DNA of 41,563 nucleotides from a virus: positions 1 to 41,563 of the IMG/VR virus record IMGVR_UViG_3300032157_000369; one strand, given 5' to 3'. Below, in pieces: positions 13,065-41,354 of the stretch (its first letter is position 1; every line of letters begins with the position of its first letter). The notes beneath the pieces were generated by a model that saw only the letters and a program-made list of their open reading frames with translations, made no database searches and was not told the origin of the DNA. The position numbers and the translations under genes were made by a program.

Positions 13065-13675
13065 CAGAAGAGCCTCGAGCCAATCACCAGGCTGTCGAGC
13101 AAGCCGTCCGCGAAATCGTGCGGGATCTTGACGCGGTTGCTGAGGATGATCTGCTCGCGGTTCTCGTGAAACGTCGCCGCGCGCGCGTGCAGCCAGAGCT
13201 TGAGCTTCGCCGGGATGGCCGCCTGGAATGCCGACTCGTCCTCCGGCGAACCGATCGCCGCGTAGCCGGCGCGGTAGTTCACGCGCACGGCATCGATCAC
13301 GTTGCGGACCGCGGGCCACGCTACCTGCCAGGCCGGCACGACGACACCCGGTTCGCGATCCGAGTGCACGACATACTGATCCGCAGCGAGAGTCTGCTGC
13401 ACGCCGTCCAGATCGACGTACGTGATCGACGTGACCTCGAGCAGTGGCGGCTGCGGCAGCTCGATCCAGCCGCATTGCCAGCCCGGCAGGATCAGCTGCA
13501 GGCTGCGCGGAATGAAAGCGCGGCCGGTCAGGTTTTCCGCGTATTCGCGCATCGCCTGGATGAGCAGAGTGGCGAGCCCGGCCTGGCTGTCGGCGGAACT
13601 GATACGCGCCCAGCTCTCGAACTCGGAGACCTTGACCGGCTCGTAGACCGGGGCAGTGACGACTTTGAGTGTCAT
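13064..13675 (-). CDS. head-tail connector, HK97 gp6-like
   Basis: 203 residues. The start MTLKVVTAPVYEPVKVSEFE, the helical segment (LATLLIQAMREYAENLTGRAF), the central IELPQPPLLEVTSITYVD, and the C-terminal AIPAKLKLWLHARAATFHENRE are hallmarks of the gp6-like connector family, which docks onto the portal. It is the first head gene after the glycosyl-transfer cassette and overlaps its last member (ATGA at 13675), so connector translation appears coupled to a sugar-modification gene. That is unusual, because in related phages this gene normally follows the capsid gene closely. Confidence 0.88.
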   Translation of the reverse strand: MTLKVVTAPVYEPVKVSEFESWARISSADSQAGLATLLIQAMREYAENLTGRAFIPRSLQLILPGWQCGWIELPQPPLLEVTSITYVDLDGVQQTLAADQYVVHSDREPGVVVPAWQVAWPAVRNVIDAVRVNYRAGYAAIGSPEDESAFQAAIPAKLKLWLHARAATFHENREQIILSNRVKIPHDFADGLLDSLVIGSRLF

Positions 13676-14955
13676 GCGTCGAGCACCTTGAATTTGGGCA
13701 GCGGCACGACCATCCGCCCGCGCAGGCCTTCGTTGCGCAAGCGCTTGGCGATGAAGTCTCCGTAGTGCCAGGAGAACAGCAGCAGGTAGTCGGGCTGCTC
13801 TTCGAGCAGGCGCCGGTTCTCGACGATCGGCAGGTGCTTGCCAGGCACGAACTGGCCGAGCTTCAGGCTGGTCGGCAACTCGCCCAGGTACGGCACCAGG
13901 TCGGGCGTGATGCCGTAGAAGTTGATGAGCGGCGTCGCGCGGCCCGGCGCCGACACGCCGGCGACGCTCGCGCCCTCGCGGCACGCCCGGTGCAGGAATT
14001 CCATGCAGTGGTCGCGCTGCTCCAGCACCCGGCTGCGAAACGCAGCCCACGACGCCGGGTCATGCAGGCCGACACGGTCTTCCTCCTGCAGGATCCAACA
14101 CACATTGGGCGTCACCTGGCAGGTCCCGCGCCGGGCAACATAGGCGCGGATGTTGCCGCCGTACCGATCGGCGCGCTCGGCGTCGAAGACTTCCAGCCCG
14201 TACTGGCCGAACAGCACGCACAGCGCCTTCAGGCTGTAGGTGCGCAGGTGCTCGTGGTAGATCGAGTCGAACTGGTTTTTCTCCTGCAGGGCGAGCAGGT
14301 AATGGTTCTCGATGACGAGCACGCCGTCGCTGGCCAGCAGCTCGAGCACGCCGCGCATCACTTCGCCCAGCGGCGCCATGTGCGCGAAAACGTGCGTCAT
14401 GGTGATCAGGCGGGCCCGGCCGCGATCCTTGGCGATGTCGCGCGCCAGCGCCTGCGTGAAGAAGGCCTGCAAGGTAGGCACATGGTTCTCATCGCGCGCG
14501 ATCTGCGCGATGCCGGTCGGCTCGACCCCGAGCACCGTCCCGCCGCGGCGCGCGAAGGCGGCGAGCAGCGTGCCGTCGTTGGAGCCGATGTCGACGATGA
14601 GCCGGCCGTCCAGCGGGCCGAATCGCCCGGCCAGGTTCGCGGCCAACGCATCCTGCGCCTCGACCACGGGGCTGGAAATGCCCGCGCGATACGGATACGC
14701 CGCCGGGTACAACTGTTCGCCCGGGACGACGTAGTCCAGCTGCGCGAGGCCAGATTCCGGGCAGTGCATGAGCCGCAGCGGATAGCTGACTTCGGGCGCA
14801 TCCAGCGTTTCGCGCGTGCGCAGCGCGGCGCAGGGCGGCTGGTGGCCGAGGTCGATGACCAGGTCCAGGCGCCTGGACCCGGAGATCTGGCACCGCTTGA
14901 GCGGCCCGGCCGCGACGTCGTGGTCGACGACCAACGGTTCGTGCAGGTTTCCCAT
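13672..14955 (-). CDS. NovU/TylC3-like C-methyltransferase
   Basis: 427 residues. The N-terminal ~85 residues resemble the putative zinc-binding domain of deoxysugar C-methyltransferases (CQISGS ... LVIDLGHQP ... RLMHCPESGLAQLDYVV), but the usual first CxxC is reduced to one Cys. A SAM-binding motif LIVDIGSNDGTLLAAF follows at about residues 119-134, and the C-terminal domain has GVSAPGRATPLINFYGI, the typical Methyltransf_14-like motif. Members methylate carbon 3 or 5 of NDP-sugars. It closes a string of sugar genes beginning near 20.3 kb and overlaps both neighbours by ATGA. Substrate unknown. Confidence 0.85.
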   Translation of the reverse strand: MGNLHEPLVVDHDVAAGPLKRCQISGSRRLDLVIDLGHQPPCAALRTRETLDAPEVSYPLRLMHCPESGLAQLDYVVPGEQLYPAAYPYRAGISSPVVEAQDALAANLAGRFGPLDGRLIVDIGSNDGTLLAAFARRGGTVLGVEPTGIAQIARDENHVPTLQAFFTQALARDIAKDRGRARLITMTHVFAHMAPLGEVMRGVLELLASDGVLVIENHYLLALQEKNQFDSIYHEHLRTYSLKALCVLFGQYGLEVFDAERADRYGGNIRAYVARRGTCQVTPNVCWILQEEDRVGLHDPASWAAFRSRVLEQRDHCMEFLHRACREGASVAGVSAPGRATPLINFYGITPDLVPYLGELPTSLKLGQFVPGKHLPIVENRRLLEEQPDYLLLFSWHYGDFIAKRLRNEGLRGRMVVPLPKFKVLDA

Positions 14956-15602
14956 CACCCCTCCCACGAAAGGACGTAGACGCCGTTCATGCAGTCGCGC
15001 ACCACCGCGCCCAGCCATTGCAGATAGAGCACGGCGCCGTTCTCCGGTAGCCCGAAGCGCTGCGCCCGGCCGGGCTTCTGCTCCACCACCACACAGGGCC
15101 GGCAGCGCTGAAGCGTGGCTTGCGCGCCGCGCAGCGCATGCAGCTCGTACCCGTTGCAGTCGACTTTCAGGTAGTCGACGTGCGCGAGCTCGAAGTCGTC
15201 CAGGCGTCGCATCTCGATGTCGCCATTGCCATTCATGTCGATGCGCGCGTCGCAGTTCAGGCCAGCCGGCGCGCTGAACGCCACGCGGCCCGGCCACTCG
15301 CCCAGCGCGCACGGATAGAGCTGCACACCGAGGCCTTCGGTGTTCTTGACGAAGCACTCCTGGTGCTCGAGGACGGGCTCGAAGGCGTGCACCTTCGCGA
15401 ACATCCGGGACAGCGGCAGCGTCCACAGGCCGACATGCGCGCCGGCGTCGACCGCCGTGCGCCATTTCTTCACCCACACCAGCGAATGCCGCAGCTTGTC
15501 GGCCTGGTATTCGGGCACACCCTCTGCGAGCCGCGCACGCTCGAGGATCTGCGGCAGGTGCTCTTCGCCGTCCGGCAGCCAGATCCCGCGCACCTGTTTC
15601 AT
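14955..15602 (-). CDS. FkbM-family SAM-dependent methyltransferase
   Basis: 215 residues with the FkbM pattern: TAVDAGAHVGLWTLPLSRMF (motif I, about residues 49-68), HAFEPVLEHQECF, and DYLKVDCNGYELHALRGA near residue 140-160, where family members usually have KIDVEG. These enzymes O-methylate sugars or polyketides. It lies between a glycosyltransferase-like gene and the C-methyltransferase, with ATGA overlaps on both sides. It probably acts on the same glycan as its neighbours. Confidence 0.85.
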   Translation of the reverse strand: MKQVRGIWLPDGEEHLPQILERARLAEGVPEYQADKLRHSLVWVKKWRTAVDAGAHVGLWTLPLSRMFAKVHAFEPVLEHQECFVKNTEGLGVQLYPCALGEWPGRVAFSAPAGLNCDARIDMNGNGDIEMRRLDDFELAHVDYLKVDCNGYELHALRGAQATLQRCRPCVVVEQKPGRAQRFGLPENGAVLYLQWLGAVVRDCMNGVYVLSWEG

Positions 15603-16378
15603 TCACCCTCCAGCACCACCGCGCGCGCGATGCCGCGGCGGATCTCTTCGGTCGTGAACTGCCCCCAGGCGAGCGATGCCGCCCAGGCCTCGCGATCGGG
15701 CCGCGGCGGCTGCTCGATGTCGCCGCGCTCGTTGTGCAGCAGATCCGCGACGCTGCCCGCCACCGGCGCCGCAGCAGCGAACCAGGCCGTGAACGCCGGC
15801 ACGCCGGCGCAGACCGCCTCTACCGCGACGTTGCTGGTGTAGGTCACCACGCACCAGCAATCGCGCAGACGCTCGGCCAGCGGCACCGGATCGCCCTTGT
15901 GGCTGATGCGGATCTGCCGCTCGGTGCGCGTGCGCAAGGCCGCGAGCATCGAATCCAGCCAGGTCGCGCCGCAGAACAGCTGCTGGATCGCCTCGCCTGG
16001 CGGCACCAGCAGGATGTGCGACCCGCCCCTGCGCCACGGCTCGAGGCGCCCGCCGACGGCCTCGAAGCGCGCGAGGCTGCGGCCGGCGTCCACGACCAGC
16101 TTCTGGTAGCCGTTGCGCGTGATGCGCAGCCGGTCGGTGTGCGTGCCGCCGCCGAAATAGGCGCGATCCCAGAACACGTAGTCCAGACGTCCAGACAGGA
16201 TCTGCCGCATCAGCCCGAGGCAGCCGAACTGCAGGCCGCCGAGGATGTGCAGGTCCGCCGACAGGTCGAGCTGCTCGGCCTCGCAGCCCATCTGCGCCGC
16301 CGGGAATCCGGCGACCATCGCCTCGGTGAAGTGCCGCGCCTTGCGCCGCTGCGTATAGATCGCGGCGCCGGGGATCAC
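15599..16378 (-). CDS. glycosyltransferase-like protein, paralogue of the 19.5-20.3 kb gene
   Basis: 259 residues from a GTG start (16378, GTGA overlap). The C-terminal half looks like a GT-B nucleotide-sugar binding domain: IRISHKGDPVPLAERLRDC, then CVVTYTSNVAVEAVCAGVPAF, and a closing WAASLAWGQFTTEEIRRG. The protein encoded at 19539-20351 has matching segments ([19 protein letters not shown] and [15 protein letters not shown]), so the two appear to be paralogues flanking the rest of the cassette. It may transfer or process a sugar; the donor and acceptor are unknown. Confidence 0.7.
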   Translation of the reverse strand: MIPGAAIYTQRRKARHFTEAMVAGFPAAQMGCEAEQLDLSADLHILGGLQFGCLGLMRQILSGRLDYVFWDRAYFGGGTHTDRLRITRNGYQKLVVDAGRSLARFEAVGGRLEPWRRGGSHILLVPPGEAIQQLFCGATWLDSMLAALRTRTERQIRISHKGDPVPLAERLRDCWCVVTYTSNVAVEAVCAGVPAFTAWFAAAAPVAGSVADLLHNERGDIEQPPRPDREAWAASLAWGQFTTEEIRRGIARAVVLEGE

Positions 16379-17058
16379 GCGCCGATCCGTGCCTTCAGCG
16401 CCGCCAGCCCCGCCGCGCGCTCGGCGCCGAGCGTGGCGTACAGCAGGTTGTCGGCCTCGCTCGTCTTCGTGACGCCACGCACCAGGCGGTACGTGTCGTC
16501 GTCCGGCGCCTTGCCGTATTTCTTGTGCATGTGCTCGGTGACAACATGCCGCAGGAACTCCAGCCTGCCGAGGTCCTTGGCGAGCTCTTCGACCCACTGG
16601 TCGACGCAGAAATGGCGGAACTCCGTGCGCACCATGTAGCCGAGCGCGTCGACCCAGCGCCGCGTGGTGAAAAAGTGCTCGCACTTCTCGCGGTCCAGGC
16701 CGTTGTTGCTGTAGGCCACGAGCAGGCCATCCGGTACCGCGGCGAAGGCGGCGCGCACCTGGTCGTCCCAGCCCTGCGTGCGGAACAGGATGTCGTCGGC
16801 GCCGGCGAACAGGATGTCGCCCGCCGCGCGGTTCTGCAGGAACTCGATGCCCAGGCCGTAGCTCTGCATGCGCCACGCCGGGAACAGCTTCGCGCCGCTC
16901 GGCGGCTCGGCGAAGTACTGCGCGGCGCAGGCGTCCTCTTCGGACACTCGCACCAGGACCTCGATGTCGGCTGGCCGCGATGCGGTACCGAACACTGAGG
17001 ACACCATCTCCTCGAGCCGCGCGGGGCGGCCCCACGTCGGCACCAGGATGGAAATCAT
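16375..17058 (-). CDS. GT-A (family 2-like) glycosyltransferase
   Basis: 227 residues opening with MISILVPTWGRPARLEEMV, the characteristic N-terminus of family 2 glycosyltransferases, followed by a GADDILF segment (about residues 89-95) in the place of the metal-binding DxD. The later VRTEFRHFCVDQWVEEL probably contributes to acceptor binding. It is coupled to the upstream GT9-like gene by ATGA and to the downstream gene by GTGA. Likely a cytoplasmic transferase with no membrane segment. Confidence 0.8.
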   Translation of the reverse strand: MISILVPTWGRPARLEEMVSSVFGTASRPADIEVLVRVSEEDACAAQYFAEPPSGAKLFPAWRMQSYGLGIEFLQNRAAGDILFAGADDILFRTQGWDDQVRAAFAAVPDGLLVAYSNNGLDREKCEHFFTTRRWVDALGYMVRTEFRHFCVDQWVEELAKDLGRLEFLRHVVTEHMHKKYGKAPDDDTYRLVRGVTKTSEADNLLYATLGAERAAGLAALKARIGA

Positions 17059-17819
17059 GCGGCTTTCCTCAGCAGATTGCGCAATGCGGCGGCGACCTTC
17101 TCGGGCGTGATCTCGTTCATGGCCTCGGCGCAGTGCGGACAACGCACGCGCGAACCGCAGCCCAGCGGAAAGCGTTCGTCTTCGACGTAGAAATCGACCT
17201 GCCCCGCGTAGCCCGTCACCTTCGGGCTGATGTAGCCGCCGCGGATCACGATCGCCGGCACATTTAGCGCCGCCGCCGCGTGGTGCAGCGCGCCCTCATG
17301 CACGACTGCCGCGCGCGCGCCGGCGAGCAGCCCGCAGGCATCCATGAAACTCGAGGTCGGGATATGGCGCACCTTGTGCAATCGCGGTCCGGTGTGCTCG
17401 CCGATCTGCACCCAGTTCACGTCCGGCATGAGCGTGAGCAGCGCCTTCCACCGCTCGATGCCCCATACCTTGTTCGGCGGCGCCTTCGCCTTGATGCTCG
17501 GGTTGAACACCACCGCACCCTGCGTCTCCCGCATCAGCGCACGTGCCGAGGACGTGAGGTGAAGCTCCGCGGGCTCAGGCTGGTACGCTCTGAAGGTGCG
17601 TGCGATCGCGGTCTCATCGACCAGGTAGTGGCGACGGCCGTTGACGTAGCCCACTAGCGCATCGCATTCCTCACCGGGCCGCGCCATGTACGCGATGCCC
17701 TCCCAGGCGTAGTGCCAGCGCCGCACCCCGTGCTTGTCCAGTATGCCGACCTTGCACGCGCCGGCGCGCGCCATCCGCCGCGCCTCGCCGGCCACCATCA
17801 ACTCGTCTCCGATGCCCAT
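17055..17819 (-). CDS. GT9-like (heptosyltransferase-type) glycosyltransferase
   Basis: 254 residues. Residues about 98-200 match the GT9 C-terminal domain: VVFNPSIKAKA, WKALLTLMPDVNWVQIGEH, SFMDACGLLAGARAAVVHEG, then HHAAAALNVPAIVIRGG. The C-terminus carries a Cys cluster (GCGSRVRCPHC) seen in some members. GT9 enzymes transfer heptose or related sugars in lipopolysaccharide synthesis. Start at ATG 17819 overlaps the upstream stop; the longer frame to 18056 is a shadow. Confidence 0.8.
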   Translation of the reverse strand: MGIGDELMVAGEARRMARAGACKVGILDKHGVRRWHYAWEGIAYMARPGEECDALVGYVNGRRHYLVDETAIARTFRAYQPEPAELHLTSSARALMRETQGAVVFNPSIKAKAPPNKVWGIERWKALLTLMPDVNWVQIGEHTGPRLHKVRHIPTSSFMDACGLLAGARAAVVHEGALHHAAAALNVPAIVIRGGYISPKVTGYAGQVDFYVEDERFPLGCGSRVRCPHCAEAMNEITPEKVAAALRNLLRKAA

Positions 17820-18499
17820 CAGCGCAGGACGAAGGCGTCCGCAAAGGCCTGCATCTGGTGCTTGCGCTTGCCCTTGAAATGCACGGCGAACGGGTTGCCC
17901 TTGCCAGCGATGCCGTTGACGCCGGGCGTCATGTTGAAGCGCTTGCACGGAAGAAACCGGATCCGCGCGCCCTGCCGCATCCAGTCGCCGTTTTCGTGCA
18001 CCGGCGCCGCCGCCTTGCTGACAGCCTGCTGGTCGCCGCCCCAGTGCCCCTGGCACAGCTCGTAGGCGGCGCGGAAGAACTTGAGCGCGGCCTCGCGCGC
18101 ACCCGCGGAGACGTACATGACGCCGTTGTTGATGGGCGAGTCAGGCTCGATACGGCTCGTCAGCCCGATATCGAAACCATCCCCGAAGGCACCGGCCAGG
18201 TCGCGGGCAATGACGACATCGCAATCGGCCAGCACCAGGTGATCCTTGTTGTCCCACTGCTCAAGGGCCGCGATCTGGCCCGCGACCATGGCGAACGAAA
18301 ACTTTTCCGGCAGCTCGGCCTTGATCACGTCGAACGCGGGCAGATCCTGATCGCTCACCACCCGGTGCCGGTGGCCGAAGCGCTCGCAGCTGCGGCGCTG
18401 CAAATCCATCAGCTGCAGATACTTCGCCATTTCCAGCGTCGCGCTCCGGACCGCACGGTCGTTCGGACGCGGCGCCCAGACTGGGATGACGTCGATCAC
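17819..18499 (-). CDS. glycosyltransferase-like protein with DCD motif
   Basis: 226 residues from a GTG start (18499, GTGA). It has the layout of GT-A, family 8-like transferases: [27 protein letters not shown] provides a hydrophobic strand ending in D-C-D (about residues 92-94), followed by [13 protein letters not shown] and HWGGDQQAV motifs typical of the nucleotide-sugar pocket, and a late [14 protein letters not shown] am fairly confident of the fold but not of the sugar. It is in the same coupled run of genes. Confidence 0.7.
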
Positions 18500-19542
18500 C
18501 GCAGCCCGTTCTTGACGGCGTCGCACACCTGGTCGACCTCCGCCAACGTCATTTGCGGCCAGAGCGGCAGGCTCAGAACCTCGTCGGACTGGCGCTCCGC
18601 GAGCGGGAAATCGCCGCGCTCCCAACCAAGGCGCGCATAGGCCGGCTGCAGGTGCGGCGGGACCGGGTAATGCACCATCGTCGGAATGCCGGCGTTCTGC
18701 AGCACCTCCCGGAAGCGATCGCGATCGCCGTAACGAATCACGAACTGATGCCAGACGCGGCCCGGCGTGTCCGAAGGCAGCTGCAGGTCCTCGTCCAGCA
18801 GGTTCTCTATGTAGCGGCGCGCCAAGGCTTCGCGCTGCGCGTTGTGCCGGTCCAGGTGCCGCAGCTTCACGCGCAAGATCGCCGCCTGCAGCTCGTCCAG
18901 CCGGGAGTTGATCCCGCGCTCGACATGGCTGTTCTTGAATTTCGACCCGTAGTTCGCGAGCACCCGCACGCGTTCGGCGAGCTCATCGTCGTTGGTCGTC
19001 ACCGCTCCGCCGTCGCCGTAGCAGCCGAGGTTCTTGGTGGGGTAGAAGCTGAATGCCCCAGCCAGCCCCAACGATCCGACCCTGCGCCCATTCACCATCG
19101 CGCCATGCGCCTGGGCGCAGTCCTCGATGACAGGCAGTTCCTCGATCTCCTCCTCGCCTGCCGGTACCGGCTGCCCGAACAGATGCACCGCGAGCAGCGC
19201 GCGAGTCCGGCCGGTGACCACGTCGGACACGCCCGGCTCGAACGGCACGGGCATCGCCCCGACCGCGCTCACCGCGAGCCAGTCCGCGATATAGCCGTTC
19301 GACGGCACCAGGACCTCGTCGCCGTCGGCCACGTCCAGCGCCATCAGGATCAGGCGCATCGCGTCGAGGCAGTTGCCGACTCCGATGCAATGTTTCACGC
19401 CGATGTAGGCGGCGAACTCTTGCTCGAAGGCCTCGACCTCGGGGCCCAGGATGTACTGTCCAGACGTCAAGACCCGGCGCACGGCGCCATCGATCTCATC
19501 GCGCAATTCCAGATAGCCGGCCTGCGCGTCGAAGAATTTCAT
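18496..19542 (-). CDS. DegT/DnrJ/EryC1/StrS-type sugar aminotransferase
   Basis: 348 residues. The family's landmarks are all visible: [16 protein letters not shown] (PLP phosphate region), [11 protein letters not shown] (Asp141 to the pyridine nitrogen), [17 protein letters not shown] with Lys170 as Schiff-base lysine, and the [11 protein letters not shown] and [10 protein letters not shown] segments. These PLP enzymes make 3- or 4-amino-deoxy NDP-sugars. In a phage, this suggests that the cassette makes an unusual amino-sugar itself. No NDP-sugar dehydratase or reductase is present in the window, so the ketosugar substrate would have to come from the host. Confidence 0.93.
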
Positions 19543-20351
19543 GCAAGCAACCTCTTGAACGGCTCGCCGCTGGAGATCTCCGCCAGCGTCCACTGCGCCC
19601 AGGCCAGGCGCTCGAAGGCGGGCTCGCGCTCGCCGATGGAGATCTGGTCGACCTCCTCGATCCGCCCCGGCGCGGCGCCCTTGAGGATCCAGAACGGCGC
19701 CGTGCAGATCACCTGGACGCCGGCGACGAGCGCGTGCACGCCGGCTGAGCTCGCCCAAATGACCATCGCGTGCGCGCCCTCGAGGTCCGCCGACAGCGGC
19801 ACCTTCGGCGGATTGCTCTGCCAGTTGCCCGGGTGCGGCCGGATGCGGATCGGCCGGTCGGTGAATTTCTTCAGGTGCTCGGCCGTGCGTTCGGCCCAGT
19901 CGGTGGGCATGATGAAATCGGGCCGCCCGAAGGACCGATTCGGGCAGACCAGGATGTGTTTGCCACCGGACTGGATGCGTCCCAGCTCGATGCCCAGCGC
20001 GCGCCACCGCGCACCATAGGTTTCGGTCTCGGCGAGCCAGCTGCCGCCTGCGCGGTCAGGCCACTTGCCGGAGCCGTTGTGCCCGCCTTCCGCGATCGCG
20101 TACAGCTGGTGCCCGTTCGCGTCCCTGCCGACGTAGCCGTTTTCCGCCACGATCACCCGCCCGCCGCCCGCTTCGACGCGGCAGGCCAGGTTGTGGTTGT
20201 CGCCGTAGCGATTCCAGATGACGAGCACGTCGCACTTGTCGCCGTGCATCGGGCTGCCCTTGCGCAGATCCAGTCCGGCCGCCTTGAGGCCGGCATCGAA
20301 GGCCTCGCGCCTGTAGATCGGGCCCGGGCGAATGAGGCTATAGGCTCGCAA
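19539..20351 (-). CDS. glycosyltransferase-like (GT-B, capsule-type) protein
   Basis: 270 residues from a TTG start at 20351, 14 bases inside the upstream gene; no better start is visible and the first residues ([17 protein letters not shown]) look conserved. Segments [26 protein letters not shown] and [16 protein letters not shown] fit capsule-polysaccharide-type GT-B enzymes. It is a paralogue of the 15599-16378 gene. Its stop overlaps the aminotransferase start (ATGA). Confidence 0.7.
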
Positions 20352-34711: not shown

Positions 34712-35089
34712 ATGAACGCAGCCGTACAAGCCACGCTCCCCGCCATTGGCGCCGCCTTCGAAGGCGGCACCTTCGCCGGCATCACGCTTCACAACGACCA
34801 GCTCGCCGCGCTGGTGCTGATGCCGGGCGACACGTCACGCGTCACTTGGGACCGGGCGGCCGAAGTTGCGAAGGAGCAAGGCGGCGAACTGCCGTCGCGC
34901 CACGACATGCTGGTGCTGCTCAAGAACGTGAAGTCTGAATTCCGGACCGATGACTGGTATTGGACGAATGAGGAAGTCGCCGGCGACGCCGACTGCGCGT
35001 GGGTCGCGGACTTCTACCACGGCGGCCAGAACTGGCTCCGCAAGAGCATCGGCTGCCGGTGCCGTGCCGTCCGCAGAGTCGCCATTTAG
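34712..35089 (+). CDS. DGR target protein 1 (C-type-lectin-like, DUF1566-like)
   Basis: 125 residues; ribosome site ACAGGAGG. The body GGTFAGITLHNDQLAALVLMPGD ... GGELPSRHDMLVLLKNVKSEFRTDDWYWTNEE has the DUF1566/formylglycine-generating-enzyme-like C-type lectin pattern of DGR targets. The last 37 residues are encoded by variable repeat 1. No signal peptide or membrane helix is present, so it is probably cytoplasmic or attached to something else. Fourteen of the 98 template positions differ, all template adenines. The protein would be a binding scaffold with about ten changeable residues. Confidence 0.93.
   Translation: MNAAVQATLPAIGAAFEGGTFAGITLHNDQLAALVLMPGDTSRVTWDRAAEVAKEQGGELPSRHDMLVLLKNVKSEFRTDDWYWTNEEVAGDADCAWVADFYHGGQNWLRKSIGCRCRAVRRVAI
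34979..35076 (+). repeat. DGR variable repeat VR1
   Basis: 98 bp aligned without gaps to the template repeat (38438-38535). It differs at 14 positions and all are A in the template. Changed codons: AAC at template codons 3, 11, 13, 14, 16, 20 and 24, plus TAC, ATC, CAC, GAC and TAC codons. Codon 18 (AAC) is unchanged. The block ends at CGCAG, after which template and target diverge. Confidence 0.96.
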
Positions 35090-35111
35090 CGATTCACCAA
35101 TTCAACCATTC
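35077..35111 (+). repeat. conserved block downstream of VR1
   Basis: AGTCGCCATTTAGCGATTCA and onward to about AACCATTCC, shared with the sequence after VR2 and, with changes, VR3, but not with the template. It holds the target stop codon and a short stem, TCGC (35079-35082) with GCGA (35089-35092), around a six-base loop. By analogy with Bordetella phage BPP-1 this is where an initiation-of-mutagenic-homing context or hairpin would lie. Confidence 0.65.
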
Positions 35112-35121
35112 CAGGACTGAC

Positions 35122-36894
35122 ATGAACGCACCGACGCAAGCCGCGCACGTGGCCGAACCGAATGTAAAGCTGGTTCCGCTCGCGCAGATCATCCTCAGCA
35201 CGACGCGCAGCCAGGAGCAACGGCGCAAGACGTATGACGCCGCAGCCCTGGCAGAACTCGCCACCAGCATCAAGGAAGACGGTGTGATGTTCGCGATTCT
35301 CGTGCGCCCGCTCGCCAGCCGCATCGGCGAAGCTCCCGCATACGAGATCATCGCCGGCGAGCGGCGCTTCCTTGCCAGCCAGCAGGCCGGTATCGAGAGT
35401 ATCCCCGCGCGGATCCTCGCGCTCACCGACGCCCAGGTGCAGAAGGCGCAGCTGGTCGAGAACATCCAGCGCGAGGCCCTGGATACGCTCGCGGAGGCGA
35501 TGGGGTACGAGGATCTGATCAAGGGCGGCATCGCGGCCGAGGTCATCGGCGACATGATCGGCAAGAGCCGCAGCTACGTCTACGCGCGCGTGCAGCTGCT
35601 CAAGGTGGCGCCCGGCGTGCGGAAGGCGCTCAGCGCCGGCGAACTCACGGCATCGCAGGCCCTGCTGTTCGCGCGCATTCCAAGCGAGAAGCTGCAGGAG
35701 GCCGCGCTCGGCACGCTGCGCAAGTGGGACTACCAGGGCCGTGGCGAGCCGCTCAGCTTCCGTCGCACCGCCTCGATCCTGAACGACAAGGCCAAGGGCA
35801 TCTTCATCCCCCTGGTCACGGTGCCGTTCAAGCTCGACGACGCGACCTACCACACCTTCGGCCCGAAGCAGGGCAAGAACCAGGCGCAGGACGTGATCGC
35901 CCTGCCGACCTGCATCGCCTGCCCGAAGCGCTCCGGCAACGACCCCGAGCTCCAGGCCGCGCTGGAAGATCCGAACGTCTGCACCGACAAGGCCTGCCAC
36001 GACGTCAAGGCCAAGCAGGCGCTCGAGCGCCGGCGCAAGGAGATCGAGGCTGACGGCATCGTAGTGCTGCGCGGCGAGGAAGCTGCCGCGATCATGCCTA
36101 CCGACTTCGGCACGCGCGGCTACGTCGACCTCGACAGCCAGTGCGACGCCGACGAATTCCCCGAGGCCGAACCCGACCAAGGGAAGGACGAGGATGACGA
36201 CGCGTTCGAGCGCCGCATGGGCACGTGGGAGGAACGCGCAGACAAGCACGTCTGCCGGACCTACCGCCAACTGCTAGGCGACGACATCGCGAAGCTTGAC
36301 ATCAGGGTCGTCGAGCACCAGAAGGGCAATCGCTTCATCGAGCTCGCGCCCGACAAGGCGGTGGCGAAGCTGCTCAAGGAAAAGGGCATCGAGGATCGCG
36401 TCCACCGCGACACCCGCCAGCCCTCGAAGCCTGTCAAAACGGCGGATCCCGAGACAGCGAAGCGCCAAGCCGAGAAGGAAGCGGCCGCGAAGGCGAAACA
36501 GGAACTCGAGCAGAAGATCACCCGCGAGGTGCAGTTGCTCGCGCTCAAAGGCGTGCACGACAAGTGGAAGGGCCCGCTCGATCGCGACGAGCTCGAAATC
36601 CTCTGGAACACGCTCTACGACAACAGCAACCACACCGAGAGCTTCGACTTCCTGTATCCGAAGCACCCGAAGGCCGGCGCGATGAACCTGCGCGATCTGG
36701 GCCGCGCCATGCTGATGCTCGTCGTCTGCGACACCCTGGAAGGCTGGAACGCCGACGCCAGCGCGAAGCTGCTCAAGGCCCTCGCCGCACGCCTGAAGGT
36801 TGACGTCAAGTCCATCGAGAAGAGCGTGCGAGCCGAGCTCGATCCCACTGCGGCGCCGAAGAAGCCCGCCGCCAAATCCAGCAAGAAGAAGTAA
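35122..36894 (+). CDS. ParB-like partition/nuclease-domain protein
   Basis: 590 residues. The ParB N-terminal domain shows KEDGVMFAILVRPL and EIIAGERRFLASQQAG with the GERR motif, followed by the KorB/ParB HTH region (LAEAMGYEDLIKGG, EVIGDMIGKSRSYVYARVQLLKVAPGVRKAL). The middle carries a Cys-rich segment, CIACPKRSGND ... CTDKACHDVKAKQ, resembling phage ParB proteins. The C-terminus has a Lys/Ala-rich coiled coil and a basic tail (KKPAAKSSKKK). No ParA is in the window. It lies between the first two DGR target genes. It may bind parS-like sites, segregate a plasmid-like form, or regulate early genes. Confidence 0.88.
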   Translation: MNAPTQAAHVAEPNVKLVPLAQIILSTTRSQEQRRKTYDAAALAELATSIKEDGVMFAILVRPLASRIGEAPAYEIIAGERRFLASQQAGIESIPARILALTDAQVQKAQLVENIQREALDTLAEAMGYEDLIKGGIAAEVIGDMIGKSRSYVYARVQLLKVAPGVRKALSAGELTASQALLFARIPSEKLQEAALGTLRKWDYQGRGEPLSFRRTASILNDKAKGIFIPLVTVPFKLDDATYHTFGPKQGKNQAQDVIALPTCIACPKRSGNDPELQAALEDPNVCTDKACHDVKAKQALERRRKEIEADGIVVLRGEEAAAIMPTDFGTRGYVDLDSQCDADEFPEAEPDQGKDEDDDAFERRMGTWEERADKHVCRTYRQLLGDDIAKLDIRVVEHQKGNRFIELAPDKAVAKLLKEKGIEDRVHRDTRQPSKPVKTADPETAKRQAEKEAAAKAKQELEQKITREVQLLALKGVHDKWKGPLDRDELEILWNTLYDNSNHTESFDFLYPKHPKAGAMNLRDLGRAMLMLVVCDTLEGWNADASAKLLKALAARLKVDVKSIEKSVRAELDPTAAPKKPAAKSSKKK

Positions 36895-36917
36895 CCCACC
36901 CACACGGAGGAACCACC

Positions 36918-37289
36918 ATGGCCAAGAAACCCGCCGCGAAAGCGGCCAAGCCCCCCACCCTGAAGAAGGGCGAAACCTACGTCGGCATCACGCTGCACGA
37001 CGACAAGCCGCACCACCTGATCCTGCTGCCCGGCACGGAGCGCAAGGTCTGGAAGGACGCCGTCGCCTGGGCGAAGAAACAGGGCGGCGTGCTGCCGTCG
37101 CGCATCGACATGATCGTGCTCTTCGAGAAGGCGAAGGACAAGTTCGAAGGCTACTGGTACTGGACCGGGCAGGAAGTCGCCGGCAACGCCGACTGCGCGT
37201 GGGTCGCGTTCTTCGACGACGGCTTCCAGAGCTGGTACCACAAGAGCAGCGTCTACCGGTGCCGTGCCGTCCGCAGAGTCGCCATTTAG
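36918..37289 (+). CDS. DGR target protein 2 (C-type-lectin-like, DUF1566-like)
   Basis: 123 residues with ribosome site CACGGAGG. N-terminus is Lys/Ala-rich (MAKKPAAKAAKPPTLKKGE), so it may bind nucleic acid or an acidic partner; this tail is echoed by the ParB-like C-terminus just upstream. The lectin-like body (TYVGITLHDDKPHHLILLPG ... GGVLPSRIDMIVLFEKAKDKFEGYWYWTGQE) matches targets 1 and 3 at moderate identity, whereas the variable repeat region is nearly the same outside adenine positions. That contrast is what retrohoming from one template predicts. Confidence 0.93.
   Translation: MAKKPAAKAAKPPTLKKGETYVGITLHDDKPHHLILLPGTERKVWKDAVAWAKKQGGVLPSRIDMIVLFEKAKDKFEGYWYWTGQEVAGNADCAWVAFFDDGFQSWYHKSSVYRCRAVRRVAI
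37179..37276 (+). repeat. DGR variable repeat VR2
   Basis: 98 bp, 12 differences from the template, all at template adenines. Codon changes include AAC to TTC (codons 11 and 16), AAC to GAC (13, 14), AAC to AGC (18, 24), AAC to TAC (20), plus ATC to GTC, TAC to TGC and GAC to GTC. Codon 3 (AAC) is unchanged. Confidence 0.96.
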
Positions 37290-37314
37290 CGATTCATCCA
37301 TTCAACCATTGAGA
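37277..37314 (+). repeat. conserved block downstream of VR2
   Basis: Same order as after VR1: AGTCGCCATTTAGCGATTCA, then a run ending TTCAACCATT. The TCGC/GCGA stem is conserved exactly (37279-37282 with 37289-37292). Only a few bases differ from the VR1 block. Confidence 0.65.
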
Positions 37315-37325
37315 GGAGTTTCGCC

Positions 37326-37835
37326 ATGAAAAACGATCTGACGACCGAGCAGTTGCTGCAGCCGGTCACGGTCACCATCAGCCTGGGCGCGGTGTTGCGC
37401 CTCGCGGAGCTCGACGCGCGCGGGCCGCACGCGGCGCCGCCGGCGGGCCGTTACGACATCCTTCCCGACTGCCTGCCGTCGATCGGCAGCCCCTGGGACG
37501 ACGCCAGCATCAAGGGCGGCATTTACGCCGGCATCACCGTGCACGACAACACGCCCATGGCCCTCGTGCTCCTGCCGGCGTCGGCCGAGCGGAAGACCTG
37601 GCAGGAGGCGCGCGAGTGGGTGCAGCTGCAGGGCGGTGAATTGCCCTCGCGATTCGATTCGCTGGTGCTGTTCAAGAATCTGAAGAGCGAATTCGAGGAG
37701 GCCTACTACTGGACGAGCGAGGAAGCCGGCAACGCCGACTGCGCGTGGATCGCGAGCTTCGGCTACGGCAGCCAGCGCTGGGGCCACAAGAGCTACGGCT
37801 ACCGGTGCCGTGCCGTCCGCAGAGTCGCCATTTAA
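37326..37835 (+). CDS. DGR target protein 3 (C-type-lectin-like, longer N-terminus)
   Basis: 169 residues, ribosome site GAGAGGAG. The N-terminal ~65 residues are unique (MKNDLTTEQLLQPVTVTISL, then a proline-rich linker), and the remainder repeats the family body (GGIYAGITVHDNTPMALVLLP ... GGELPSRFDSLVLFKNLKSEFEEAYYWTSEE). Variable repeat 3 encodes the C-terminal lectin face. The extra domain suggests that this copy binds another phage or host partner through its N-terminus. It is the target closest to the template and to avd. Confidence 0.93.
   Translation: MKNDLTTEQLLQPVTVTISLGAVLRLAELDARGPHAAPPAGRYDILPDCLPSIGSPWDDASIKGGIYAGITVHDNTPMALVLLPASAERKTWQEAREWVQLQGGELPSRFDSLVLFKNLKSEFEEAYYWTSEEAGNADCAWIASFGYGSQRWGHKSYGYRCRAVRRVAI
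37725..37822 (+). repeat. DGR variable repeat VR3
   Basis: 98 bp, 12 differences from the template, all at adenines: AAC to AGC, GGC, TAC, AGC, CGC, GGC and TAC at codons 11, 13, 14, 16, 18, 20 and 24, plus TAC to TGC and GAC to GGC. ATC at codon 9 is kept, unlike VR1 and VR2. Confidence 0.96.
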
Positions 37836-37860
37836 CGATTTAGCGATTCAACCATTCCAT
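37823..37860 (+). repeat. conserved block downstream of VR3
   Basis: Begins AGTCGCCATTTA like the other two but then has ACGATTTAGCGATTCAACC, so it contains a small insertion and two possible GCGA-type 3' arms. The target stop is TAA instead of TAG. It runs straight into the avd start at 37859. Confidence 0.6.
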
Positions 37861-38212
37861 GGCGCTGCACTTCGAAACTGACCTTTACAAGGCCGTCGTC
37901 GACCTCGGCAAGGCGGTGATCCCGGCCGTGCGCAGCATGCCGCGCGACGTGAAGCAGCTGCTCGGCGGCCGGATCCTCGACGAGGCGCTGTGGATGGGCG
38001 TGCTGGTCATGCGCATTAACAAGGCGAAGGACGCGGCCAAGCTGCCGGTGATCGACGATCTGCTCGAGCATCTGGAGCTCGCGCAGATGACGCTGCGCCT
38101 CAGCCGCGAGTCGAAGTTCATCGCCAACAAACACTTCGCCGATGCCCTGCCGCTGATCGCCTCGATCGGCAAGCAGGCGCATGGGCTGAGGAACCATTTT
38201 GCTCCCGCTTAG
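37859..38212 (+). CDS. avd: Avd accessory variability determinant
   Basis: 117 residues, all-helical and rich in basic residues: FETDLYKAVVDLGKAVIPAVRSMPRDVKQLLGGRILDEAL ... LLEHLELAQMTLRLSRESKFI ... LPLIASIGKQAHGLRNHF. This is the four-helix-bundle Avd (bAvd-like) that forms a pentamer, binds the reverse transcriptase and template RNA, and is required for cDNA synthesis and mutagenic homing in BPP-1. It starts right after the VR3 downstream block and ends ~225 bases before the template repeat, the standard order target-avd-TR-RT. The ATG at 37859 has no clear Shine-Dalgarno (CATTCC before it), so translation may be coupled to target 3. Confidence 0.93.
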   Translation: MALHFETDLYKAVVDLGKAVIPAVRSMPRDVKQLLGGRILDEALWMGVLVMRINKAKDAAKLPVIDDLLEHLELAQMTLRLSRESKFIANKHFADALPLIASIGKQAHGLRNHFAPA

Positions 38213-38437
38213 CTTCAGCACACAGCGCCTGTTGCACGAGCGGCAAGCCGCCCGTGCCCGTGCGCGTTTCTCTCTGGTCGCGCCGCTGGGCACCGCGATA
38301 TTCACGGGCGGACCCACCGACACGCGCACAACGGATACGGAGCAGCTCGACCTGTTCACGTCCGGCGCAGTCTCCCCGGCCAGCAATGGCCAGGGCGACG
38401 TAGATAGCGCGAATGGCGGCATCTTCGTTTTGTCGGC
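38213..38437 (+). other. leader between avd and template repeat
   Basis: 225 bases without a convincing gene. One frame is open right through from TTG 38199 into the reverse transcriptase, but the amino-acid sequence looks like translated GC-rich noncoding DNA. In BPP-1 the 5' part of the template RNA begins here and folds with Avd and RT. No promoter or terminator is obvious. Confidence 0.5.
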
Positions 38438-38535
38438 GCCGGCAACGCCGACTACGCGTGGATCGCGAACTTCAACAACGGCAACCAGAACTGGAACCAC
38501 AAGAGCAACGACTACCGGTGCCGTGCCGTCCGCAG
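38438..38535 (+). ncRNA. DGR template repeat (TR) and template RNA core
   Basis: 98 bp, template for adenine-specific mutagenesis. Read in the target frame it has eight AAC codons, which on adenine mutation can give 15 amino acids but no stop codon. There are 27 adenines in total. It ends in an adenine-free stretch (CCGGTGCCGTGCCGTCCGC) that is the same in all three targets, the expected homing-initiation side. RNA 3' of this point, inside the RT coding frame, would be the priming spacer by analogy with BPP-1. Confidence 0.96.
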
Positions 38536-39638
38536 CGGGATACCCGTTCGAGGGAGCCTTTTCTTACGATGATCTGGTCGCCGCCTGGCTTGAGTGCCGG
38601 CGCGCCAAGCGCACCACCGCCGCGGCGATCGCCTTCGAGCTCGACCTCGAGGCGAACCTCACCGCGCTCTACGATACGCTCCGGGGCGGCACCTGGCGGC
38701 CCGGGCGCTCGGTCTGCTTCCCGATCCACCGGCCGAAGAACCGCGAGGTCTGGGCCGCGGACTTCCCCGACCGCGTCGTGCACCACCTGCTCTACCGCCA
38801 CATCGGCCCGCGCTTCGAGCGCGCCTTCATCGCCGACAGCTGCGCCTGCATCAAGGGCCGCGGCACCCTCTACGGCGCCCGCCGCCTCAAGGCGAAGCTG
38901 CGCTCGATCACCCGCAACTGGACCCGCCGCGCCTGGTACCTCAAGTGCGACCTGGCCAACTTCTTCCCGAGCATCAAGAAGGACATCCTGTCCGCACGTC
39001 TGGACGCGAAAATCCCCGAGCCCTTCTGGCACGACCTCGCGCACCGCATCCTCTTCCACGACCCGCGCCCCACCGTCGACCTGCGCGGCGACCAGGCGCG
39101 CCTGGCGACCATCCCGCCAGCGAAGAGCCTCTTCCACCAGCCCGCCGACCACGGCCTGCCGATCGGCAACCTGCCCAGCCAGTTCGGCGCCAACGTCCTG
39201 CTCGACGTCCTCGACCAGCATGTAAAGCACCAGCTGCGCGTGCGGCACTACATCCGCTACGTCGACGACTTCATCCTCCTGCACGAAAGCCCGCAGCAGC
39301 TGAACGCCTGGCTGGCCGACATCGCCGCCTTCCTGCCCCGCGAACTCGGCGTCCGGCTCAACCCGGCCAAGACCATCCTGCAGCCCGTCGACCGCGGCGT
39401 CGACTTCGTCGGCCACGTCATCAAGCCCCACCGCACCACCCTGCGCCGGCGCACCCTCAACGACGCCCTGAACCGCCTGCAGACCATCCCCCGCGCCGAC
39501 GTCTACGCCGCCGCCAACAGCTACCTCGGCCTCGCCCGCCAGGCCTCGCACTCCCACCACGACCGCGCCCGGATCTGCAACGCCGTGCGGCGGCGTGGAT
39601 TCGCGGTCAACCATCAACTGACGAAGGTGTATCCATGA
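38523..39638 (+). CDS. DGR-type reverse transcriptase
   Basis: 371 residues if read from GTG 38523. RT motifs in order: RSVCFPIHRPKNREVWAADF (motif 1-2 region), YLKCDLANFFPSI with catalytic Asp143, GLPIGNLPSQ (211-220; the SQ form is typical of DGR and bacterial retroelement RTs), and RYVDDF with the YVDD catalytic pair at 246-249, then FVGHVI and a basic thumb. Size fits DGR RTs (about 330-400). The start is uncertain: GTG 38523 lies in the last codons of the template repeat, and the only other in-frame choices are TTG codons at 38199, 38232 and 38430. No Shine-Dalgarno precedes GTG. It should form a complex with Avd and copy template RNA with random incorporation opposite A. Confidence 0.95.
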   Translation: MPSAAGYPFEGAFSYDDLVAAWLECRRAKRTTAAAIAFELDLEANLTALYDTLRGGTWRPGRSVCFPIHRPKNREVWAADFPDRVVHHLLYRHIGPRFERAFIADSCACIKGRGTLYGARRLKAKLRSITRNWTRRAWYLKCDLANFFPSIKKDILSARLDAKIPEPFWHDLAHRILFHDPRPTVDLRGDQARLATIPPAKSLFHQPADHGLPIGNLPSQFGANVLLDVLDQHVKHQLRVRHYIRYVDDFILLHESPQQLNAWLADIAAFLPRELGVRLNPAKTILQPVDRGVDFVGHVIKPHRTTLRRRTLNDALNRLQTIPRADVYAAANSYLGLARQASHSHHDRARICNAVRRRGFAVNHQLTKVYP

Positions 39639-40117
39639 TCGGCATGAGCCACGACGAAAATGCGCGTCCTGATAACGGGCAGAGCAGATTGATTGCCATC
39701 GCTGCCGAACTTGCCAACGAGAACGAGCGGCTGCGTGGCGTGGTAGCGAGCCTGCTGAACGACAAGGGGTCAGTGCAATACCCGGCGCAGCATGAGCGCG
39801 TGGTGGCCGCAAGGAAGGCGCTGGACGGCCCCGCTGTTCCGCTGTCCGACATCACCAACGAAATGCGTCAGGCAGCGTGGACGAAGTTCACCAGCGCAGA
39901 CGTTCCGTACTCGGCCATCTACGCTGTCATGCACGCTTGCGCAGTGCCGGAAGGGACGCGCACGATACTGAAGCGGTACGACATGCGCGCAGAAATGGAC
40001 GGCGACCCCGAATTGTTCGGTGGCCCCGTGTGGATTCCAACCGAGGACGCAGACGGGGAGTGGGTTAAGTGGGCCGACATCGCTGCGCAGTATGGGCCGT
40101 CGCAGGCAAAGCCATGA
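39635..40117 (+). CDS. small phage protein of unknown function
   Basis: 160 residues from ATG 39635 (ATGA with the RT stop; ATG 39644 is the alternative). The N-terminal half is helical (LIAIAAELANENERLRGVVASLLN), with a coiled-coil look. The C-terminal half is mixed (EMRQAAWTKFTSADVPYSAIYAVMH ... GPVWIPTEDADGEWVKWADIAAQYG). Its tail resembles short phage early proteins of unknown role. The coupling to the RT means it is co-expressed with the DGR. Confidence 0.65.
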   Translation: MIGMSHDENARPDNGQSRLIAIAAELANENERLRGVVASLLNDKGSVQYPAQHERVVAARKALDGPAVPLSDITNEMRQAAWTKFTSADVPYSAIYAVMHACAVPEGTRTILKRYDMRAEMDGDPELFGGPVWIPTEDADGEWVKWADIAAQYGPSQAKP

Positions 40118-40263
40118 ATCAGCTGCTCGGCACCATCATTCTGACCGCCCTCCTCGCCGCGATCGACGCGGCTGGCTACTTCTACATTGTCGAGCGCACC
40201 GGCTTTTTAATCGTCGTCGGGACCGGTCTCCTGATCGTTGGCGAGTTCCGGCGGATTCCGTGA
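40114..40263 (+). CDS. 49-residue membrane peptide
   Basis: From ATG 40114 (ATGA). Two hydrophobic segments, LLGTIILTALLAAIDAAGYFYIV and FLIVVGTGLLIVG, cover nearly the whole peptide, so it is a small hairpin membrane protein. No function recognised. Possible roles are inner-membrane toxin, holin-like or sensor peptide; none is supported beyond topology. Confidence 0.6.
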   Translation: MNQLLGTIILTALLAAIDAAGYFYIVERTGFLIVVGTGLLIVGEFRRIP

Positions 40264-41354
40264 GCGGCACCAGCTCGATCGAGTGGACCGACAAATCCTG
40301 GAACCCGGTGCGCGGGTGCTCGATCGTCAGCCCGGGCTGCACGAACTGCTACGCCATGAAGTTCGCCCATCGGTTTAGCGGCACCGGACAGGCCTACGAG
40401 GGGCTCACCATGATGACCAAGGGCGGGCCTGTGTGGACCGGCAAGATGCGCCTAATTCAAGACGACCTGGTAGAGCCGATCACGTGGGTCAAGCCTTCCC
40501 GGGTCTTCGTCAACAGCATGAGCGACCTCTTCCACGAGGACTTGCCGTTTCAGTACATCGCCGATGTCTTCGCGGTCATGGCCTGCACTACGCGCCACAC
40601 CTACCAGGTCCTCACAAAGCGCCCGGCGCGAATGCTCGAATTCTTCAACTGGCTCAACCTCACCGCTCCATTTCAATGGCCAGAGCAAGTGCAACCCACG
40701 AAAGTCTGGCCGCAGTGGACGCCGTTGCGCGGGAAGCGAGGCGGTTACGACAACTGTGGTCCGCGCTGGCCGCTGAAAAACGTCTGGCTCGGGGTCAGCG
40801 TCGAGGACCAGGCCCGCGCTGACGAGCGAATACCGTTGCTCTTGAAGACGCCGGCAGCGGTCCGCTGGATCTCGGCAGAGCCGTTGCTTGGCCCCGTCTC
40901 CCTACTAGACGGTTACGTCGGCAAGTGGCCGACAGCTTGCAAGGTTGATGACAAGGGTTGGTGCCAAAAATGCCAGCTGGAACCGTTCAACGGCCTGTGC
41001 GACCAGGACGTGGAGCGGCTTGATTGGGTCGTCGCCGGCGGGGAGAGTGGCCCAGGCGCCCGCCCGTCGCACCCCGACTGGTTCCGCAAGTTACGCGACG
41101 AATGCAAGCTCGCCGGGGTACCGTTCTTCTTCAAACAGTGGGGCGGCCACCTTCCAGGCGAACTGAAGCGAGGCGAGCCGACAATCCGCTGGCAGGACGG
41201 TCGCACCGAATGGTATGGCGACCACGCCGACATCAAGTACCAGAACCACTGGCTGACGAATGACGAGGCCGGATTGGTCATCGCCTGGCCGACGGCGAAG
41301 AAGGCTGCTGGCCGCAAGCTCGACGGGCGCACGCACGACAAGTATCCGAGATGA
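40260..41354 (+). CDS. Gp37/Gp68 (DUF5131) family phage protein, radical-SAM-like Cys motif
   Basis: 364 residues from GTG 40260. WTDKSWNPVRGCSIVSPGCTNCYAMKFAHR is the family signature, with Cys residues spaced C-x7-C-x2-C, and WVAGGESGPGARPSHPDWFRKLRDEC later is its second conserved block. A four-Cys insert (CKVDDKGWCQKCQLEPFNGLC) is probably a zinc or iron-sulfur site. Related to spore photolyase/radical-SAM style proteins by pattern; the reaction is unknown. It is common in temperate phages near excisionase and integrase genes. Confidence 0.9.
   Translation: MSGTSSIEWTDKSWNPVRGCSIVSPGCTNCYAMKFAHRFSGTGQAYEGLTMMTKGGPVWTGKMRLIQDDLVEPITWVKPSRVFVNSMSDLFHEDLPFQYIADVFAVMACTTRHTYQVLTKRPARMLEFFNWLNLTAPFQWPEQVQPTKVWPQWTPLRGKRGGYDNCGPRWPLKNVWLGVSVEDQARADERIPLLLKTPAAVRWISAEPLLGPVSLLDGYVGKWPTACKVDDKGWCQKCQLEPFNGLCDQDVERLDWVVAGGESGPGARPSHPDWFRKLRDECKLAGVPFFFKQWGGHLPGELKRGEPTIRWQDGRTEWYGDHADIKYQNHWLTNDEAGLVIAWPTAKKAAGRKLDGRTHDKYPR

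Follow-up and report, generated by a model that had tools for sequence, protein, structure and literature searches.

The mechanism of diversity-generating retroelements (DGRs) is known mostly from one phage, BPP-1, whose target, Mtd, has a lectin fold. The viral record IMGVR_UViG_3300032157_000369, analysed here over its whole length of 41,563 nt (hereafter the window), carries at positions 34712-39638 an element in which a single template repeat (TR) is accompanied by three variable repeats (VRs). The locus raises the question of how one template could serve three genes and whether it does so by the arrangement found in BPP-1. A clade with its RNA scaffold on the opposite side of the template and with a different target mark would reveal which DGR features are essential. 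An initial annotation, made from the DNA alone, described the element as a complete DGR and considered it active at present or until recently. Described below are three features that it missed: an RNA element (RT-15) beside the TR, an array that follows every VR, and a TR that overlaps the reading frame of the reverse transcriptase (RT).

Results

The TR is located on the plus strand at positions 38438-38535 (98 bp, 27 adenines) and is open both in the frame of the targets and in that of the RT. The VRs, also on the plus strand, lie at 34979-35076 (VR1), 37179-37276 (VR2) and 37725-37822 (VR3); the TR aligned with VR1 and VR2 over 99 bp and with VR3 over 98 bp. A DNA search of the 41.6-kb record with the TR (E <= 0.001) detected no copies besides the TR and these three VRs. 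VR1 differed from the TR at 14 positions, and VR2 and VR3 at 12 positions each. The initial annotation had counted these substitutions by hand and placed all of them on template adenines; our recount by alignment gave the same result, with all 38 mismatches at adenines of the TR and no change in any of the 213 non-adenine cells. With random placement, and with the VRs treated as independent, the chance of this adenine-only distribution is ~3e-25. Nineteen of the 27 TR adenines were altered in at least one VR, and the replacements across the three VRs comprised 24 G, 11 T and 3 C. The pattern is the signature of mutagenic retrohoming, as had been proposed. Further, when the VRs were compared pairwise, 13-16 sites differed, every one of them a TR adenine. 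Each VR was therefore rewritten separately and not merely duplicated.

The gene avd (accessory variability determinant; 37859..38212, plus strand, 117 aa) matched phrog_3206 (E 1.9e-15), and its score against Pfam bAvd, 31 bits, was under the 40-bit cut-off. The RT gene (38430..39638, plus strand, with a proposed TTG start at 38430 and the conserved domain from about 38556) matched phrog_1423 (E 6.6e-110) and was over the cut-off for Pfam RVT_1. IGNLPSQ, a form of the IGxxxSQ motif that we take to be a hallmark of DGR RTs, was present. Neither of the two features that the initial annotation had named as speaking against its reading was found, since no VR differed from the TR at a non-adenine position and the YVDD motif of the RT was intact (39258-39269). 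The window thus contains adenine-specific TR/VR differences, a DGR-type RT, avd and a lectin-fold target with a C-terminal VR. We concluded that the element is a complete DGR, in which avd and an intact RT accompany three C-type-lectin targets.

Target 1 (34712..35089, plus strand, 125 aa) is a stand-alone C-type-lectin protein of the Lcl_C/DUF1566 type. Its Lcl_C match (E 7.8e-5) was under the cut-off; its AlphaFold model had a pLDDT of 95.3, and the top PDB match of the model was 8q4e, the C-terminal domain of Lcl (E 7.5e-6). On this model, target 1 can be confidently assigned to the C-type lectin fold, nearest to the Lcl C-terminal domain. Target 2 (36918..37289, plus strand, 123 aa) and target 3 (37326..37835, plus strand, 169 aa, with an N-terminal extension) are 54% and 58% identical to target 1, respectively, and were assigned to the same fold family by homology only. 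All three are short stand-alone domains encoded on the plus strand, and their neighbours include genes of the winged-helix and ParB-like types. No VR lies in any recognised gene for tail or head, all of which are on the opposite strand.

The use of one template for three targets had been called uncommon, a view that was not supported among relatives of this element. For comparison we took 80 viral loci whose RT is related to that of the window, 62 of which had at least 4.5 kb upstream. Two VRs were found in 47 of these, three in 12, one in 2 and none in 1; thus, 59 of the 62 loci had at least two. Among 80 genome loci, 79 were analysed (L155, in which the match started inside the RT, was left out) and 70 had at least 4.5 kb of flank, with two VRs in 51, three in 11, one in 3 and none in 5. 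L137 and L144, which were among these five, had three and two VRs, respectively, once a displaced TR was recognised. Note that the TR/VR finder requires 70-75% of mismatches at A, and the A-fraction of 2017/2057 in the viral loci is partly circular. Several targets are the rule in the window clade, and a DGR with three targets is ordinary there. For DGRs at large, passages in two papers give multiple VRs in 28.6% (271/948), with a single TR in 216 of the 271 (PMC6642488), and in about one seventh (PMC3521204). The former lists DUF1566 as a common DGR target domain, and a passage in a third paper describes the available data as limited for phages with multiple targets (PMC10743442).

The gap between avd and the TR in the window measures 225 nt and is occupied, on the 5' side of the TR, by the structured RNA RT-15 (Rfam RF03018; 38223..38419, plus strand; 130.5 bits vs a gathering score of 82). 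RT-15 was over the cut-off in all 50 viral records scanned (from 80) and in 41 of 46 genomes scanned (from 80), the remaining five being distant RT outgroups (L160-L164, 40-45% RT identity), and was found in 0 of 14 controls. Among 102 non-redundant loci, five RT-15 helices covaried beyond all 200 column shuffles, which preserve column make-up but not relatedness, the relatives not being independent. The spacing from RT-15 to the TR was +17 nt in the window and in its closest relative, L085, and -8 nt (an overlap) in L144.

In most loci RT-15 is located on the 5' side of the RT frame, and it might accordingly be a cis-regulatory leader of the RT messenger, acting as an RNA switch or in translation control, instead of a part of the template RNA. 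In 67 of 102 loci, the 230 nt upstream of the TR contained an in-frame ATG that could serve as the RT start, and in Burkholderia phage Magia the annotated RT start (5782), with a ribosome-binding site before it, falls inside RT-15 (5697-5879). However, in 17 of 20 loci the end of RT-15 was no more than 3 nt away from the start of the TR, and the conserved nucleotides of RT-15 were found in varying frames relative to the RT. Further, in L137 and L144, where ~0.9-1.2 kb separate the TR from the RT downstream of it (in L144 this stretch contains a PAPS-reductase-like gene), RT-15 stays at the TR and not at the RT. We consider a leader function improbable; judged from these arrangements, RT-15 appears to belong to the template and not to the RT messenger.

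A third reading, in which the RT-15 region is a conserved protein-coding N-terminus of the RT, was rejected because the same nucleotides were in different frames between loci and the helices covaried. Two pairings predicted by RNAalifold were also set aside. One, between RT-15 (38273-38278) and the TR (38484-38489), had 2 compensatory cells, a number reached by 4 of 200 shuffles; the other, between the end of the TR and RT codons (38527-38535/38594-38602), had 5, a number reached by 48 of 200.

Searches with RT-15 by itself recovered five loci beyond the results of the RT searches: L178 (G052 contig 29) and L326-L329. The latter four came from 250 genomes searched by RT-15, and a further 244 genomes added no new locus. 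Each of the five contained an RT, two or more VRs and a TR no further than 4 nt from RT-15; the array described below followed 9 of 9 VRs in L326-L329. Four of eleven sub-threshold RT-15 matches were checked, and none had an RT within 3 kb. In L047, RT-15 scored 182.9 bits, and no VR was found within 11 kb.

The start of the RT open reading frame listed at 38199 is mechanical, since no stop interrupts the frame across the RNA element and the TR. The RT of the window has no ATG start, and only TTG 38430 or GTG 38523 is available. The RT frame was fully open across the TR in 65 of 78 loci (77 viral loci and the window). When 102 loci were examined for in-frame starts, 93 had an ATG in the TR or in the 230 nt preceding it but not after the TR, 7 had an ATG after the TR, and 2 (the window and L085) had non-ATG starts only. 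The upstream ATG was retained in 35 of 39 loci without a TR-internal ATG vs 32 of 63 others (P 4e-5, ignoring kinship). The RT would be translated through the TR, with the TR encoding an N-terminal tail. Residues 1-37, which correspond to this tail, were predicted to be disordered (pLDDT < 50). The RT frame of L144 contains ATGs of its own apart from the TR; the TR-encoded tail is therefore not needed in that locus. An overlap of TR and RT was noted already in 2012 for DiGReF group 3, where it was stated from annotation (PMC3521204); the relevant section of that paper names no RNA element, whereas the window has RT-15.

The DGR of BPP-1 (NC_005357) resembles that of the window in the order avd, TR, RT, in TR-adenine-specific differences and in a target with a C-terminal VR. 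In BPP-1, however, avd and the TR are separated by 0 nt, and the 144-nt gap between the TR and brt holds the Rfam family Phage_DGR (RF03022), 3' of the TR; in the window the 225-nt gap with RT-15 lies 5' of the TR, and the TR is inside the RT frame. RT-15 was not found in the BPP-1 locus. Conversely, the window had no Rfam match 3' of the TR, where BPP-1 has its spacer RNA, and predicted pairs in the RT coding part were no better than shuffles. All of 10 further BPP-1-like loci scanned had RF03022 immediately ahead of the RT, and 0 of 10 Bise-like loci had an RT-associated Rfam match. Bacillus phage BalMu-1 has another RNA, RT-14, directly 3' of the TR. The median distance from TR to RT was 36 nt (24-58) in 102 loci of the window clade, measured to the conserved RT domain, and 151 nt (140-186) in 55 BPP-1-like and 139 nt (123-190) in 68 Bise-like loci, measured to the start of the RT query. 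Four BPP-1-like loci in which the match fell short of the RT start were dropped from the control set, and a TR/VR was absent from the contig in 8 of 63 BPP-1-like and 12 of 80 Bise-like loci.

Within the 6 kb examined, BPP-1 has one VR, which is followed by a GAAA-loop hairpin; in the window, each of the three VRs is followed by an AT-rich array that repeats every 8 bp. The arrays are located on the plus strand at 35084..35110 (after VR1; ATTTAGCG ATTCACCA ATTCAACC ATT), 37284..37310 (after VR2) and 37830..37856 (after VR3). The strict array pattern was confined to the stretches after the three VRs when both strands of the window were scanned. The unit, approximately TTYANTMM in 3-4 copies, was derived from 147 segments selected for runs of three, and its TT is therefore fixed by selection. 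Among 102 loci, at least three TT at lag 8 were found in 184 of 212 VR-downstream segments vs 9 of 212 shuffled ones, in 10 of 102 segments after the TR and in 218 of 3091 AT-rich windows drawn from these loci, the arrays themselves possibly being among these windows. After removal of redundancy, 179 of 205 VR-downstream segments of the window clade had the array and 26 did not. The first TT was located 8 nt past CCGCAG in 110 of 190 anchored VRs; the anchor was absent in 22 of 212 VRs, and a run of three was absent in 20 of the 190.

No array was found after 41 BPP-1-like and 41 Bise-like VRs (VRs were counted in 3-kb flanks in these control clades and up to 6 kb in the window clade). The Bise-like VR-downstream segments had autocorrelations of 0.358 at lag 6 and 0.318 at lag 8 vs ~0.27, a signal weaker than that of the window clade. 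A repeat was also visible by eye in L175. Short-period repeats may therefore not be special to the window clade, and a looser form of the array may be distributed more widely.

A hairpin with a GRNA loop has been proposed as a conserved requirement (PMC3240598). This hairpin was found after 0 of 3 VRs in the window and, with perfect stems only, after 3 of 205 VRs in the window clade, 32 of 41 in the BPP-1-like and 8 of 41 in the Bise-like loci. Stems of at least 7 with any loop of 3-5 nt were present within 70 nt of the VR in 38 of 212 VRs, and several of these resemble terminators. The array would stand in for the BPP-1-type hairpin in the window clade. A narrow literature search found no description of such an array, and the term 'AT-rich' was absent from PMC3240598 in a word search.

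The array need not be a homing signal: it overlaps the stop codon of the target (ATTTAG or ATTTAA in the window), and in some relatives it is followed by a GC hairpin and a T-run. It could thus be linked to a terminator, provide stops in several frames or be a remnant of target gene duplication. This possibility deserves some weight but is unlikely, given that the array recurs behind the VRs of 102 diverged loci, in many cases in the same phase, is rare after the TR and was not seen in two other DGR clades. Further, its variable bases are unlike between the VRs of one genome.

Rewriting was examined in pairs of related loci, using collinear VR alignments only; this comparison is not circular. 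In eight pairs (16 VR comparisons), the VRs differed at 212 of 480 TR-adenine sites vs 3 of 1109 other sites, and the TR differed at 0 of 826. In one pair, L009 and L010, 17 of 33 VR adenines differed vs 2 of 4539 positions outside the VR and TR. When Shewanella phage vB_Sb_QDWS was compared with OP650936, a record of equal length that carries an UNVERIFIED flag, 14 of 26 adenines differed in one VR and none in the other, with 0 differences in 9876 positions outside the VRs and TR. The targets are therefore rewritable one at a time. These comparisons covered 16 of 17 RT pairs that were at least 93% identical and two phage pairs; L024/L091 was left out, L091 being the same as L046. No VR change was found in ten pairs. 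Eight of these consist of a viral and a genome contig that probably derive from one assembly; the other two, L057/L058 and L080/L083, came from different metagenomes and had identical VRs. Rewriting is therefore not constant. Thus, comparison of related genomes shows that adenine-specific rewriting of VRs occurs in relatives of this phage.

For the phage itself, an exact search with a 36-nt TR pattern gave 0 matches in the viral contigs, a set from which records very near the window may be absent. Megablast of 8 kb against phages, where near records may likewise be absent, gave only a 36-nt match, to six Streptomyces phage records. The ongoing or recent activity claimed by the initial annotation agrees with the adenine pattern and with the rewriting in relatives; because no near-identical relative was found, we infer the activity of this phage's own copy. 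A decayed or dormant DGR, with VRs that retain an old mutational pattern, would be compatible with the non-ATG start of the RT. Such decay is nevertheless very improbable in view of the unchanged non-adenine cells, the intact avd and RT and an RT-15 score over the cut-off, and the DGR of this phage is probably functional.

Discussion

We propose that the element is a complete and probably functional DGR of an RT-15 type. In this model, the template RNA would be a transcript with the RT-15 RNA followed by the TR, and RT-15 would be the structured part that engages the RT and Avd. The RT would copy the TR to cDNA, with errors opposite adenines, and the cDNA would replace the VR in any of the three small lectin-fold target genes. 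The recipient would be marked by the GC-rich end of the VR (CCGCAG) followed by the AT-rich 8-bp-period array, where BPP-1 has a hairpin instead. The sequences themselves establish the anatomy, the adenine-only differences, the covariation of the RNA, its adjacency to the TR, the association of array and VR and the adenine-specific rewriting in relatives; binding of RT-15 to RT-Avd, recognition of the array as the recipient mark and translation of the RT through the TR are putative steps of the model.

The RT-15 family reportedly derives from Weinberg et al. 2017. The Rfam name of RF03018 links the family to reverse transcriptases only, and here it is placed as the putative 5' domain of a DGR template RNA. 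A literature search of limited reach found no published link of RT-15/RF03018 to DGRs. If the model is true, an Rfam family that is named only for its association with RTs would gain a function; DGRs of this kind could be found by the RNA alone, and recorded phages carry the element. Further, directed protein evolution would benefit from a target tag that is portable and from a template shared by several genes.

The layout of the window clade, with RT-15 on the 5' side, an array after the VR and the TR in the RT frame, is a variant of the DGR. We see about even chances that RT-15 DGRs are a separate homing type, in which a 5' scaffold binds RT and Avd, the TR also codes for part of the RT, and recognition of recipients by the array instead of a hairpin eases the recruitment of several targets.

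The clade consists mostly of phages and prophages of beta- and gammaproteobacteria and is common in loci of Pseudomonas and Burkholderiales. Magia (L166) and vB_Sb_QDWS (L167) belong to it, with RTs 64% and 62% identical to that of the window, respectively. In both, RT-15 touches the TR, compared with 17 nt in the window; avd is annotated in Magia. Their hosts differ, and each has two VRs in the stretch examined; L168, which is the twin of L167, contains a third in part. Several DUF1566 targets, as in the window, are also described for Stenotrophomonas sp. SKA14 in a passage of PMC6642488, where two TRs accompany six VRs.

A tyrosine/cysteine difference between the template and its variable repeats

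At position 38454 of the window, TR carries A within a Tyr codon, whereas all three VRs carry G, giving a Cys codon. Consequently, every target of the window reads CAW, owing to the G at this site, while YAW is the consensus of 41 targets. This difference may reflect chance, selection or a recent change of the TR.

RNA and repeat elements in other phage DGRs

In the DGR of Bacillus phage BalMu-1, the Rfam RT-14 RNA (positions 2726-2869 of locus L173) begins where the TR stops on its 3' side. Because of this starting point, RT-14 may, judging from its placement in the sequence, be a 3' DGR spacer RNA. The DGR of Bacteroides phage F2 has a gap of approximately 130 nt between avd and the TR, and 38 nt separate the TR from the annotated RT. 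A GAAA hairpin is present after its VR, and no Rfam match was found in this locus; this DGR is perhaps another of the 5' type that uses a different RNA. In Faecalibacterium phage Lagaffe, a repeat of AATCTG with a period of 8 was seen by eye after the VR, suggesting that short-period repeats after VRs may extend beyond the clade of the window.

Over the 10 kb compared, OP650936 was the same as Shewanella phage vB_Sb_QDWS except in one VR. The OP650936 record is named Hujiaoplasma phage zrk29-1 and flagged UNVERIFIED; the host given there (Hujiaoplasma) is doubtful.

Neighboring and accessory genes

A ParB-like gene with ParB_N and HTH_ParB domains (35122-36894) lies between targets 1 and 2 of the window, and the record's right end carries a gene for a DUF5131/phrog_2045 protein (40020-41354). 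In L144, a compared DGR locus, a scan of part of the gene together with its ORF placed a PAPS-reductase-like gene (4853-5935) between the TR and RT. Further, the minus strand of the window at 13672-20007, flanked by head and tail genes, harbors sugar-modification genes: one matches DegT aminotransferase at E = 9e-96, another encodes a C-methyltransferase (Methyltransf_13/14), and a weak match points to a family 9 glycosyltransferase. These genes possibly act in glycan modification of the virion or host.
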